NCBI GenBank assembly: GCA_904419785.1
Contig: CAJFSY010000018.1
Coordinates: 1-34,075, forward strand
From: an uncultured Neglectibacter sp.
GTDB taxonomy: Bacteria > Bacillota > Clostridia > Oscillospirales > Acutalibacteraceae
Direction of reading: 5' to 3'
DNA: 34,075 bases
The translations under genes and the position numbers were made by a program. Shown here piece by piece: positions 24,421-27,929 of this stretch (the first letter of the stretch is position 1; the number at the start of each line of letters is the position of its first letter). The notes beneath the pieces were generated by a model that had not been told where the DNA came from, did no database searches, and saw only the letters and a program-made list of their open reading frames with translations.

Positions 24421-24436
24421 ACACAATATCTAGTAT
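24421..24436. promoter_or_regulatory. NrdR-box-like site upstream of nrdD
   Basis: ACACAATATCTAGTAT fits the known NrdR palindrome ACACWATATATWGTGT at 14 of 16 positions and lies 18 bases before the nrdD -35. NrdR represses ribonucleotide reductase genes when dATP is high. NrdR sites usually come in pairs about three helical turns apart; I see only this one clearly. Confidence 0.6.
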
Positions 24437-24454: not shown

Positions 24455-24483
24455 TTGACAGCACAGCATGTTTTGGATATAAT
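24455..24483 (+). promoter_or_regulatory. nrdD promoter
   Basis: Perfect TTGACA (24455-24460), 17-base spacer, perfect TATAAT (24478-24483). Predicted start near 24490, one base before the palindrome. Confidence 0.9.
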
Positions 24484-24589: not shown

Positions 24590-26887
24590 ATGCTGAAAAC
24601 CATCATCAAGCGTAGCGGGGAAAAAGTCTCCTTTGACGCTTCAAAAATACGCGGCGCTATTTTCAAGGCCAACGTGCGCAACGCTACCGAGAAAATGAGT
24701 GACCAACAGTTGGACCGGCTGACCCAGGCGGTGGTGGACCAGCTGGAAAAGATGAAAACCATCCCCACGGTGGAACAGATTCAAGACGTGGTGGAGGAAA
24801 AACTCATCGCCGCCGATTATGCCAAGACGGCCAAAGCCTATATCTTGTACCGGGCCGAGCACCAGAAGCTTCGTGAGATGGATGACGAACTGGTGAAGAT
24901 CTATTCCGCTTTGACTTTTGTCCCCGCCGAGGACGCGGACTTGAAGCGGGAGAACGCCAACATCAACGCGGATACCGCTATGGGCACCATGCTGAAATAC
25001 GGTTCCGAGGGCGCTAAGAGTTTCTATGACAAATATGTGATTCCCCCCGAGATTTCCAAGGCCCACGCCGACGGGGAGATCCATATCCACGATAAGGATT
25101 TTTACACCCTGACGGAAACTTGCTGTCAGATTGATTTGATCAAACTGTTCCACGATGGGTTTTCCACCGGCCATGGCTATCTGCGTGAGCCCAAGGACAT
25201 CCGCAGTTACGCAGCCCTGGCCTGCATCGCCATCCAGGCCAACCAGAACGAGATGCACGGCGGCCAGAGCGTGCCCAATTTTGATTATTCCATGGCTAAA
25301 GGCGTGGACAAGACCCACTCTAAGGAATACTTCAAAGCGCTGATCCAGTTCTTCCAGGTGGCCAAGGGCATGGCTTATGAAGACGCCAGCGCCATGATCG
25401 ATAACGTAAAAGAGAATATTGGCAGCTGGGTCCCCATGGATCAGGCGGAAGAATACGCCAACCGGTTCGCTGCATATCTGCCTGAGCACCAGCGGGAAAA
25501 CAGCTTTGAAGAGATCACCGAAGAAGAGGCTTTGGCCGCTGCCCGGTATGCTGCCAAGACAGCTTGGCGGGAGACGGACAAGGCTACCTATCAGGCTATG
25601 GAAGCTTTGGTGCACAACCTAAATACCATGAACTCCCGGGCAGGCGCTCAGGTGCCTTTCAGCTCTTTGAATTACGGCACCGATACCTCTGAACAGGGCC
25701 GCATAGCGATCCGCAATCTGCTGCTGGCCACGGAAGCCGGCCTGGGCGATGGGGAGACCCCCATTTTCCCGGTGCAGATCTTTAAAGTAAAAGAAGGCAT
25801 AAACTACAACGAGGGCGATCCCAACTACGATTTGTTCAAGCTGGCCATGCGGGTATCCGCCAAGCGGCTGTTCCCCAATTTCAGCTTTTTGGACGCTCCC
25901 TTCAATCTGCAATATTACAAGCCCGGCGATTACGACACCGAAGTGGCCTATATGGGCTGCCGTACCCGCGTGATGGGCAATGTTCACGATCCCAAACGGG
26001 AGGTGACCTGCGGCCGGGGCAACCTGAGCTTTACGTCCATCAACCTGCCCCGTATCGGCATCGAGGCCAACAAGGACGTGAAAAAGTTCTACGAGATTTT
26101 GGACCAGCGCATTGATTTGTGCATTGAGCAGCTTTTGCACCGGTTCAAGATCCAGTGCAGCAAAAAAGCGTATAACTACCCCTTCCTCATGGGACAGGGG
26201 GTTTGGATCGATTCGGAAAAACTGGACCGCAACAGTTCTGTAGCCGAAGTGTTGAAGCACGGCACCCTCTCCGTGGGATTCATCGGCTTGGCGGAAACAC
26301 TTGTGGCCCTGACCGGTAAGCACCACGGCGAGAGTGAGGAAAGCTACAAGCTGGGCTATGAGATCATTTCCCATATGCGCAAGCGCATGGACGGCGAAGC
26401 CAAAAAGACAGGGCTCAACTTCACTTTGCTGGCCACTCCCGCCGAAGGCCTTTCCGGCAGGTTTATCCGTATCGACCAGCAGAAATACGGCAAGATCCCC
26501 GGCATTACCGACCGGGAGTATTACACCAATTCCTTCCATGTGCCGGTGTATTATCCCATCAACGCTTTTGAGAAGATCAAGAAGGAAGCTCCTTTCCATG
26601 CCTTGACCAATGCGGGCCACATCAGCTATGTGGAACTGGATGGCGACGTGTGCAAGAATATCGATGCCTTTGAAAGCGTCATTCGCTGCATGAAGGAAGC
26701 GGGGATCGGTTATGGCTCTGTGAACCACCCGGTAGACCGGGACCCTGTTTGCGGCTATAACGGCATCATCGACGATGTGTGCCCACGCTGCGGCCGCCAT
26801 GCCGGCGAAGGCGTACCTGTGGAGAAACTGCAGGAGCTGCGGAAGAAATATCACGATGTGCCCGATTATTCCTGCCTTATCCATTGA
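24590..26887 (+). CDS. nrdD: Anaerobic ribonucleoside-triphosphate reductase, catalytic chain lacking the glycyl-radical domain
   Basis: 765 residues. An ATP-cone allosteric domain fills residues 1-95 (TIIKRSGEKVSFDASKI). The ten-stranded barrel follows, with LTETCCQIDLIKLFHDGF (first active-site Cys), NEMHGGQSVPNFDY, and the thiyl-radical Cys in YMGCRTRVMGN. It reduces NTPs to dNTPs without oxygen. NrdD proteins normally end with a four-Cys zinc site and then a glycyl-radical loop (RxxGYL). Here the zinc region is D718-P-V-C721 and C731-P-R-C734, the first Cys replaced by Asp, and the chain ends after a 31-residue tail without any GYL loop. The radical domain is encoded separately at 26988. 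The SD is AGAGG; an overlapping ATG at 24585 opens only a 3-codon frame. Confidence 0.95.
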   Translation: MLKTIIKRSGEKVSFDASKIRGAIFKANVRNATEKMSDQQLDRLTQAVVDQLEKMKTIPTVEQIQDVVEEKLIAADYAKTAKAYILYRAEHQKLREMDDELVKIYSALTFVPAEDADLKRENANINADTAMGTMLKYGSEGAKSFYDKYVIPPEISKAHADGEIHIHDKDFYTLTETCCQIDLIKLFHDGFSTGHGYLREPKDIRSYAALACIAIQANQNEMHGGQSVPNFDYSMAKGVDKTHSKEYFKALIQFFQVAKGMAYEDASAMIDNVKENIGSWVPMDQAEEYANRFAAYLPEHQRENSFEEITEEEALAAARYAAKTAWRETDKATYQAMEALVHNLNTMNSRAGAQVPFSSLNYGTDTSEQGRIAIRNLLLATEAGLGDGETPIFPVQIFKVKEGINYNEGDPNYDLFKLAMRVSAKRLFPNFSFLDAPFNLQYYKPGDYDTEVAYMGCRTRVMGNVHDPKREVTCGRGNLSFTSINLPRIGIEANKDVKKFYEILDQRIDLCIEQLLHRFKIQCSKKAYNYPFLMGQGVWIDSEKLDRNSSVAEVLKHGTLSVGFIGLAETLVALTGKHHGESEESYKLGYEIISHMRKRMDGEAKKTGLNFTLLATPAEGLSGRFIRIDQQKYGKIPGITDREYYTNSFHVPVYYPINAFEKIKKEAPFHALTNAGHISYVELDGDVCKNIDAFESVIRCMKEAGIGYGSVNHPVDRDPVCGYNGIIDDVCPRCGRHAGEGVPVEKLQELRKKYHDVPDYSCLIH

Positions 26888-26902: not shown

Positions 26903-26931
26903 TTGACGGATAGAGGAAGGTTTGATAAAAT
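26903..26931 (+). promoter_or_regulatory. Promoter of the separate glycyl-radical gene
   Basis: TTGACG (26903-26908), 17-base spacer, TAAAAT (26926-26931), 16 bases after the nrdD stop. The small gene could therefore be transcribed apart from nrdD. Confidence 0.65.
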
Positions 26932-26987
26932 AAAAACAGTTATCGATTTTAAAATTACAAACCACGGATTTAGGGAGGTATATTACC

Positions 26988-27161
26988 ATGGAAAACAAGC
27001 AGGTTGCTGAGAAGAAAGAACAAATTTTGGTAGGCGAAGGCCGTGATTTCGAGCGCATCCGCCGTATCACCGGTTATTTGGTAGGCACCATCGACCGCTG
27101 GAACAACGCCAAGCGGGCCGAGGAGCGGGACCGCGTAAAGCATACACTGTCCAGCCTGTAA
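26988..27161 (+). CDS. Stand-alone glycyl-radical domain of class III ribonucleotide reductase
   Basis: A 57-residue protein: MENKQVAEKKEQILVGEGRD, then FERIRRITGYLVGTIDRWNN, AKRAEERDRVKH, TLSSL. Residues 21-52 are the C-terminal radical domain normally fused to NrdD, with the glycyl-radical loop R-I-T-G-Y-L and the radical glycine at position 29. The first 20 residues are charged and new. The ATG at 26988 is set by an excellent SD (GGGAGGT, 9 bases away), and a promoter lies upstream. Its frame differs from that of nrdD and the 100-base gap contains stops, so this is not one frameshift. I infer that it docks into the NrdD barrel and is activated by NrdG (27986), as GrcA/YfiD complements damaged pyruvate formate-lyase. 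Unlike GrcA it would be essential here, since NrdD has no copy. Confidence 0.9.
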   Translation: MENKQVAEKKEQILVGEGRDFERIRRITGYLVGTIDRWNNAKRAEERDRVKHTLSSL

Positions 27162-27188: not shown

Positions 27189-27929
27189 GTGCATATCCTG
27201 TTGGTCAACGACGATGGCATCCATTCCCCAGGGCTCAAGGCTTTGGCGGAGGCCCTGAAAGGGGCCGGGCATCAGGTCACCGTGGTGGCTCCCGACCGGG
27301 AGCGCTCGGCGGTAGGCCATGGGATCACCACGCGGGACCCTCTTTTTGTGCAGGATTTCGACTGGGAGGGCGTTCCGGCTTACAGCTGCTCCGGCACCCC
27401 CGCAGACTGCACTATCCTGGGACTGAAAGCCCTGGCTAAAGCGCCGGTGGACCTGGTGGTCTCCGGGCCCAATCTCGGGCTGAATCTGGCAGGGGACCTG
27501 CTGTATTCCGGTACGGTGGCCGCTGCCCTGGAGGGCGCGAAAAAAGGCGTGAAAGCCATTGCCCTGTCTGCCCCTAAAGAGGCGGATAAGGGGACAGTAG
27601 TGGAGGTGTTCCTTCGGCTGCTGGCCCAGCTAGACTTGGAGAAAGATGTCCGGCAGGCGCTGAACATCAACGTCCCTGCCCTGCCTTGGGAGGAAATCCG
27701 AGGCGTGCGGTGGGCGGTCCAGGGCAACGCCATGTGGACGGGCAGCTATGAGGAGCGGACTTCCCCTATGGGGAAACGGTACTTCTGGTCTACCCAGGAA
27801 GACAGCTATGACTTGGGGACGGGGGAGAACGACCGCACCCTGCTGCTGGCAGGCTATGTCACCCTGACGCCGCTGACCTATGAAATGACAGACCGGGCAG
27901 GCTTTTCAGAAAAAGAGTTTGCACTGTGA
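27189..27929 (+). CDS. surE: 5'/3'-nucleotidase SurE
   Basis: 246 residues, standard SurE length. The N-terminal metal site NDDG (D8, D9), GHGIT, SGTPADC, and VSGPNLGLNLAGDLLYSGTVAAALEG identify the family. SurE removes phosphate from nucleoside monophosphates and some deoxynucleotides, so a place between the two parts of the ribonucleotide reductase system is metabolically sensible, though not proof of a link. It starts with GTG at 27189 behind AAGGGGGGA, 27 bases after the glycyl-radical gene, probably on the same transcript. Confidence 0.95.
   Translation: MHILLVNDDGIHSPGLKALAEALKGAGHQVTVVAPDRERSAVGHGITTRDPLFVQDFDWEGVPAYSCSGTPADCTILGLKALAKAPVDLVVSGPNLGLNLAGDLLYSGTVAAALEGAKKGVKAIALSAPKEADKGTVVEVFLRLLAQLDLEKDVRQALNINVPALPWEEIRGVRWAVQGNAMWTGSYEERTSPMGKRYFWSTQEDSYDLGTGENDRTLLLAGYVTLTPLTYEMTDRAGFSEKEFAL

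Follow-up and report, generated by a model that had tools for sequence, protein, structure and literature searches.

The DNA analysed here (34,075 nt, positions 1-34,075 of the forward strand of contig CAJFSY010000018.1 in assembly GCA_904419785.1 of an uncultured gut Neglectibacter sp.; the window) carries nrdD, a small gene, surE and nrdG in this order, all on the + strand (Table 1). The small open reading frame encodes a 57-residue protein, MENKQVAEKKEQILVGEGRDFERIRRITGYLVGTIDRWNNAKRAEERDRVKHTLSSL, in which FERIRRITGYLVG corresponds to the glycyl-radical loop of class III ribonucleotide reductases with the presumed radical Gly29. Only 20 residues precede FERIRRI, and the 57-residue protein has neither a folded N-terminal domain nor an N-terminal extension that could guard activation. 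The neighboring NrdD has an ATP cone (PF03477, residues 4-92) and the NRDD barrel (PF13597, residues 121-737), and it ends in ...CPRCGRHAGEGVPVEKLQELRKKYHDVPDYSCLIH, with no RxxGYL. NrdG scored 147 bits against TIGR02491, for which the cut-off is 126.1.

Table 1. Features of the class III reductase locus, in coordinates of the window.
Feature	Position	Strand	Basis or remark
NrdR-box-like site ACACAATATCTAGTAT upstream of nrdD	24421..24436	+	2 mismatches to consensus
Sigma-70-like nrdD promoter, TTGACA-17-TATAAT	24455..24483	+	12/12
nrdD, class III reductase barrel with ATP cone, 765 aa, without glycyl-radical loop	24590..26887	+	
YMGCRTR loop with presumed radical Cys457	25949..25969	+	MGC invariant in 54 aligned rows
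Zinc-type motif CGY...CPRCGR (Cys721, 731, 734), retained in NrdD	26750..26797	+	
C-terminal tail HAGEGVPVEKLQELRKKYHDVPDYSCLIH where the radical loop would be; many truncated NrdDs have similar ones	26798..26884	+	
Promoter-like TTGACG-17-TAAAAT of the small gene	26903..26931	+	
Shine-Dalgarno GGAGG of the small gene	26974..26978	+	9 nt before ATG
Gene for a separate glycyl-radical subunit of NrdD, 57 aa	26988..27161	+	ORF, Pfam and NCBIfam profiles, dN/dS, conservation
Presumed radical Gly29 codon of the small gene	27072..27074	+	
surE (5'/3'-nucleotidase), between the small gene and nrdG	27189..27929	+	
nrdG, radical-SAM activase of class III reductase, 166 aa	27986..28486	+	

Profile searches divided a single family between the two proteins. 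NrdD covered positions 1-530 of the 562 in Pfam NRDD (E 1.6e-189) and the 57-residue protein positions 531-562 (E 2.2e-8); on NCBIfam PRK07111 they covered 1-711 and 709-744 of 746, respectively. By both profiles the two proteins are complements, and in the NRDD alignment the radical glycine is absent from the NrdD chain itself and lies in the 57-residue protein. The first-pass annotation had proposed a separate, Shine-Dalgarno-led gene for the radical loop beside an NrdD that lacks it. The former part is borne out by the GGAGG, the complementary profile coverage and purifying selection, and the latter by a chain that stops at NRDD position 530. Between the window and its four nearest relatives (L032-L035), dN/dS was 0.03-0.07 for the small gene and 0.05-0.08 for nrdD; over all pairs the values were 0.03-0.22 (seven loci) and 0.05-0.16, respectively, so that, as judged from sequence comparison, both genes are under purifying selection. 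The RRITGYLVG core, including the glycine, was invariant in 86/86 small proteins that share a locus with a truncated NrdD, a set in which this core is favored because it was collected by similarity. In NrdD, Cys457 is taken to be the radical cysteine by analogy with known NrdD structures and biochemistry. The three zinc-type cysteines were invariant in the 54 aligned, mostly fused NrdD rows and were also retained in truncated NrdDs, with the exception of two paralogs (L145 and L146), and zinc binding is predicted; NrdD of P. copri has a fourth Cys in this region.

The 100-nt gap between nrdD and the small gene showed only the promoter-like site and the Shine-Dalgarno sequence. No Rfam family matched the nrdD-small gene gap at gathering score in six sources, and no intein or homing endonuclease was matched by Pfam among the four window proteins scanned. 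A site with the same spacing (TTGACR-17-TAAAAT) lies 56-69 nt ahead of the start of the small gene in the window and in L032-L035; its position is kept despite gaps ranging from 100 to 655 nt, and its hexamers are prominent in the upstream alignment. The NrdR-box-like site has two mismatches to the consensus; 0.16 such sites are expected in the window by chance, and at least one occurred in 15/100 shuffles. As the same scan of the window gave none ahead of the small gene, regulation of the two genes may differ.

The source genome (2.2 Mb, 38 contigs, 98.34% complete) contained one match each to NrdD and to the small protein. A full-length nrdD elsewhere, which would have spoken against the first-pass interpretation, was not found within this 98.3% complete assembly, nor was the catalytic family of class I/II reductases (PF02867, Ribonuc_red_lgC), for which the same search was positive in 11/14 control genomes. 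Since it provides the sole radical domain in the window, the small protein is presumably obligatory. Taken together, the sequence data make a strong case that a gene of its own encodes the conserved radical part of NrdD, and that the window has no other copy of it.

The small protein matched 441 loci in named records, and we analyzed the best 80. In 67 of these a truncated NrdD was present in the same locus, 4 had a fused NrdD and 9 had no NrdD in the covered stretch, which in some cases lay near a contig end; these counts are not a measure of prevalence because the loci were collected via the small protein. The named isolates with the split included Neglectibacter timonensis SN17, Anaeromassilibacillus senegalensis and Scatolibacter rhodanostii. 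A sequencing error as its cause was ruled out by the 67/80 loci that look alike, named isolates included. Within the order, 119 of 295 sampled genomes gave a match to the small protein; with classes assigned by open-frame size, 51 of these had the small protein only, 41 a fused protein only and 23 both, while 4 were unclear. NrdD matches were present in all 51 small-only genomes, and in two of them (G114 and G261) the supposed small proteins were contig-end pieces of a fused NrdD. Samples of the class (343 genomes, 109 matched) and the phylum (348 genomes, 136 matched) extended the small-only matches to additional families, f126 and f185 above all.

To place the split on a tree we used 144 NrdD rows longer than 600 aa from L032-L211: 82 were truncated and had a small protein in the locus, 9 were truncated and had none there, 48 were fused, and 5 were fused with an adjacent small protein. 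Seven of the 9 have the small protein elsewhere, and the other two are the paralogs L145 and L146. These NrdD-like proteins (750-753 aa; genomes G062 and G104) are paralogs at 60% identity, lie beside their own nrdG and have neither the zinc motif nor a radical domain. The FastTree tree (143 rows, with L145 and L146 out and the window in) required 15 changes of state. The IQ-TREE tree (88 rows, thinned at 80% identity and with the long branch L143 out) required 13, at least six of them forced by well-supported branches. Placing the 44 truncated rows in a single clade made the log-likelihood 978 worse (AU test, p-AU 1e-38), and a single origin of the truncated state was rejected on this basis, with some long branches meeting in the trees. 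By these trees there was more than one change between the split and fused states. Of the 92 truncated tails, 91 from the rows and one from the window, most are GEGVPxEKLxxL-like, and this likeness across branches would also fit fewer splits followed by re-fusion or gene exchange.

In 12/92 truncated tails, scored by eye, the strand before the glycine is kept and the chain stops at or shortly after the radical position, e.g. ...CERIPRIKV (L134) and ...SERVERIKL (L132); G681 likewise ends in ...VEFERIHRITE. In sequence, such NrdDs resemble the oxygen-cut enzyme. In the genus g67, two genomes (G108 and G219) have a full-length NrdD plus an unlinked small protein of ~100 aa, and five others (G136, G067, G181, G211 and G159; L132, L142, L134, L140 and L138) have a truncated NrdD, and a similar small protein is encoded on a different contig. 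In five further genomes (L112-L116) the gene order is full-length NrdD, a small frame of 95-112 aa and nrdG. With these and the g67 siblings, the series full-length, full-length plus spare, and truncated plus spare is seen in living genomes, and it was probably travelled in this direction.

In the order sample, 23/119 matched genomes had the small protein in addition to a full-length or fused NrdD, and in 5/119 the extra copies occurred two or three times per genome. Two or three copies were also seen in split genomes (G092, with L018, L127 and L128; L061, L129, L148 and L149). For the relatives of ~95 aa, a beta-alpha-beta-beta domain is predicted at the N terminus (pLDDT 86-89 for this block, 41-61 for the radical part), and no PDB match to it was found at E <=0.001; the best, at 0.034, was a chain of a hibernating-ribosome entry. 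Distant relatives of 85-87 aa with RRITGY[LF]S (L125, L126 and L130) occur in genomes whose fused NrdD bears the same motif, and they are candidate repair proteins in other Bacillota families.

Viral contigs provided 63 further loci (L212-L274): 42 with the small protein alone, 12 with a fused NrdD, 7 with a truncated NrdD and the small protein, and 2 without a clear ORF. No NrdD match was found on the 42 small-protein-only contigs, all of which are possibly fragments. RxxGYL was retained in 41/42 of them, which represent 37 distinct protein sets. In three of the 42 (L214-L216) the motif lies within a frame of 181-212 aa. In L235, L239 and L251, a truncated NrdD that stops near the glycine position is followed by a small protein of 87-96 aa and nrdG. 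We scanned neighbor proteins at 9 viral loci, 7 of them with the small protein alone. Phage-type neighbors were present in 3/7 (a tail fibre in L213, a ParB-like protein in L229 and an integrase in L238); L221 had only radical-SAM families, and L212, L223 and L255 gave no matches. Among loci with the split set, L228 had a DNA polymerase neighbor and L239 a member of a family labelled RNA polymerase. It is likely that some of the small-only contigs are phages; many are putative ones. The matching annotated phage records numbered 14, comprising 11 unannotated faecal scaffolds, two C. difficile phages, one of which was examined and has a fused NrdD, and Eggerthella phage EL753P1. The NrdD of the latter (L275) has an insertion of ~335 residues and no radical domain, and radical-domain letters occur downstream in short separate frames.

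We consider it very probable (roughly 0.87) that the window encodes a two-component class III reductase, composed of the truncated NrdD, a trans-acting 57-residue radical subunit and NrdG, which developed from a GrcA-like spare part. At the level of sequence, this reading draws on the split itself, its conservation, the absence of another detectable reductase, the free spacing and linkage of the two genes, the repeated change of state and the co-existing intermediates. From known NrdD biochemistry we infer binding, radical formation and catalysis by the pair. NrdD retains its ATP cone, active-site cysteines and zinc-type motif but has no glycyl-radical loop, and the small protein would bring the radical loop and the C-terminal helix in trans, docking such that Gly29 meets Cys457. 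NrdG would then install the glycyl radical on the docked protein, and the complex would reduce ribonucleotides. Most likely, a duplicated radical domain first existed alongside full-length NrdD, as in relatives today; NrdD would then have lost its own radical site, making the GrcA-like spare obligatory. The idea of the first-pass annotation that the small protein is like GrcA but obligatory fits the extra small proteins that accompany full-length NrdD in relatives and the truncations at the radical glycine. A predicted structure of a relative (L065), in which NrdD and the small protein were modelled as one AlphaFold chain by reading through a stop codon, had an overall pLDDT of 86.9 and a pTM of 0.81, with P. 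copri NrdD (8p2s) as the best PDB match. The strand before the glycine and the C-terminal helix were predicted, and residues 793-795, including the radical Gly 795, were at pLDDT <50. This model does not bear on binding, and it is not independent evidence because its alignment included fused homologues.

Oxygen destroys glycyl radical enzymes at one residue. It is possible that the small protein is produced in excess and exchanged once oxygen has cut it, and the promoter-like site that the small gene has of its own in the window would allow such excess production and replacement. Given the extra copies, the viral copies, the promoter-like site in the clade of the window and the truncation at the cleavage residue in some lineages, this exchange is a good hypothesis, although a replacement of this kind would not be recognizable from sequence by any mark peculiar to it. 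A serious rival accepts the two-piece enzyme and regards the split as a neutral ratchet, in which loss of the built-in loop was harmless and oxygen exchange has no role today. This account, which we regard as possible but somewhat doubtful, gains from g67, where siblings with full-length NrdD and an extra copy stand beside siblings with NrdD cut at the glycine, and from the many tight operons. It gains also from the promoter search. Among 27 loci, 7 had gaps too short for scoring, and the 20 scored gaps comprised 11 with a promoter-like site (counted if <=1% of shuffles matched it; one of them sits 425 nt from the start), 3 with a weak site and 6 with none. A promoter of its own is therefore not general for the small gene, excess production is not a rule, and 9/20 gaps give no sign of surplus. 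However, a neutral ratchet leaves unexplained the extra copies beside full-length NrdD (23/119 genomes), the presence of two or three copies in 5/119 and the copies on viral contigs without NrdD.

That the truncated NrdD is instead dying or a regulator, with dNTPs supplied by salvage or another reductase and the small protein a leftover, is very unlikely. Some of the 51 small-only genomes do offer another source: PF02867 was found in 9 and a second, diverged NrdD (27-33% identity) in 16, with G084 having both, and the two second NrdDs examined (L147 and L150) have a GY motif of their own. PF02867 was also present in 5/11 tested genomes of f126 and f152, and in 0/6 of f185. However, no other reductase was found in 25/51, a hand count from the PF02867 and NrdD searches in which G114 and G261 were left out and the 60% paralogs of G062 and G104 were not treated as another reductase. 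The genome of the window likewise shows no second reductase, and its truncated NrdD keeps the core motifs under a dN/dS of 0.05-0.08. The truncated state is, moreover, widespread and was arrived at more than once.

We also considered that frameshifting, stop read-through or ribosome hopping joins the two genes into one full-length NrdD, the small ORF giving no protein of its own. The genes are close and ordered in most loci, and 21 of the 85 same-strand pairs share a frame. However, the distance from the NrdD stop to the small start (longest reading frame) ranged from -197 to 799 nt, leaving out two extra copies that lie far upstream (L148) or on the other strand (L149). The 85 pairs were distributed over the three relative frames as 38/26/21, and some in-frame pairs have several intervening stops, up to seven. 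An SD-like motif precedes a possible start codon in 74/86 small genes, and in the clade of the window the gap contains the promoter-like site. The halves are on different contigs in seven genomes of the order (G136, G067, G211, G159, G181, G249 and G149, among L132-L144). In the single-contig genome G796 (L290 and L282), the truncated NrdD (1.47 Mb) is ~430 kb away from the small gene, which sits beside nrdG at 1.04 Mb. In G935 (L283 and L284), two truncated NrdDs and one small protein were found, as if one radical subunit served both. The variable spacing and frame and the unlinked halves therefore indicate a trans-acting subunit, and recoding, which these data together with the SD-like motifs and the promoter-like site led us to reject, is highly improbable. 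Repair of another glycyl radical enzyme, e.g. pyruvate formate-lyase (PFL), in the manner of GrcA has hardly any credit either: the size and place of the small protein are those of a GrcA-like radical domain, but it matches NRDD and had no match to Gly_radical (PF01228) in the Pfam scan, its genomic company is nrdD and nrdG, and it complements what this NrdD is without.

The two-component class III reductase has several partial counterparts. GrcA/YfiD of E. coli and Y06I of phage T4 are likewise small separate copies of the radical C-terminus of a glycyl radical enzyme, carried by bacteria and phage, and, as in GrcA, the ~95-aa relatives have an added N-terminal domain and many of them occur alongside a full-length enzyme. 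The known proteins serve PFL, whereas the 57-residue protein is of the NRDD type and has no folded N-terminal domain; in addition, the NrdD of the window has no radical domain of its own, and a host enzyme with a full radical domain, as for GrcA, is found in 23/119 genomes of the order. According to PMC8683613, spare-part repair is validated for YfiD and Y06I only, and its extension to other glycyl radical enzymes is put forward as speculation. The class III NrdD/NrdG systems of Prevotella copri (8p23), S. thermophilus (9d3x) and phage T4 (1h78) have the ATP cone, barrel, Cys loop, zinc-type motif and activase in common with the window, but their glycine is in the same chain, whereas here it is in another gene. 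The split class II reductase NrdJa/NrdJb consists of two interacting chains, according to PMC9669993 and PMC4520616; it belongs to another, B12-dependent class, is split elsewhere and has no glycyl radical, and PF02867 was not found in the genome of the window. Pieces of nrdD are also described for some phages in PMC3653736, where fragmented nrd genes are mostly tied to introns, inteins, homing endonucleases or broken frames. In contrast, the pieces here are bounded by the radical domain and recurrent, and no such element was matched in the four window proteins scanned. Among the literature matches listed, a set mostly without subscription papers and preprints, none describes a separately encoded NrdD radical domain.

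That many related bacteria and viral sequences have this split or a spare copy of the radical tip suggests a radical cartridge that can be swapped. A broader version would hold that, throughout Clostridia and in a number of further Bacillota families, NrdD is repaired or completed by small trans-acting radical proteins, that these became obligatory more than once, sometimes via an NrdD cut at the residue that oxygen cuts, and that phage cartridges without NrdD keep or seize host dNTP synthesis. We regard this as about an even bet. The spare-part logic of PFL would appear here for the enzyme of DNA precursors, and in the window the part would be a fixed, apparently obligatory subunit with its own gene. 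If this is true, a small system of two proteins would allow radical installation, docking and exchange to be studied separately from the barrel, with natural intermediates inside one genus and copies on viral contigs. Since family models match both pieces as NrdD, reductase gene counts may misjudge many gut Clostridia. A split set also occurs outside a chromosome: a Subdoligranulum variabile record named plasmid 8 (L277), a circular extrachromosomal element of 90 kb, carries a truncated NrdD, a small protein of 53 aa and nrdG.
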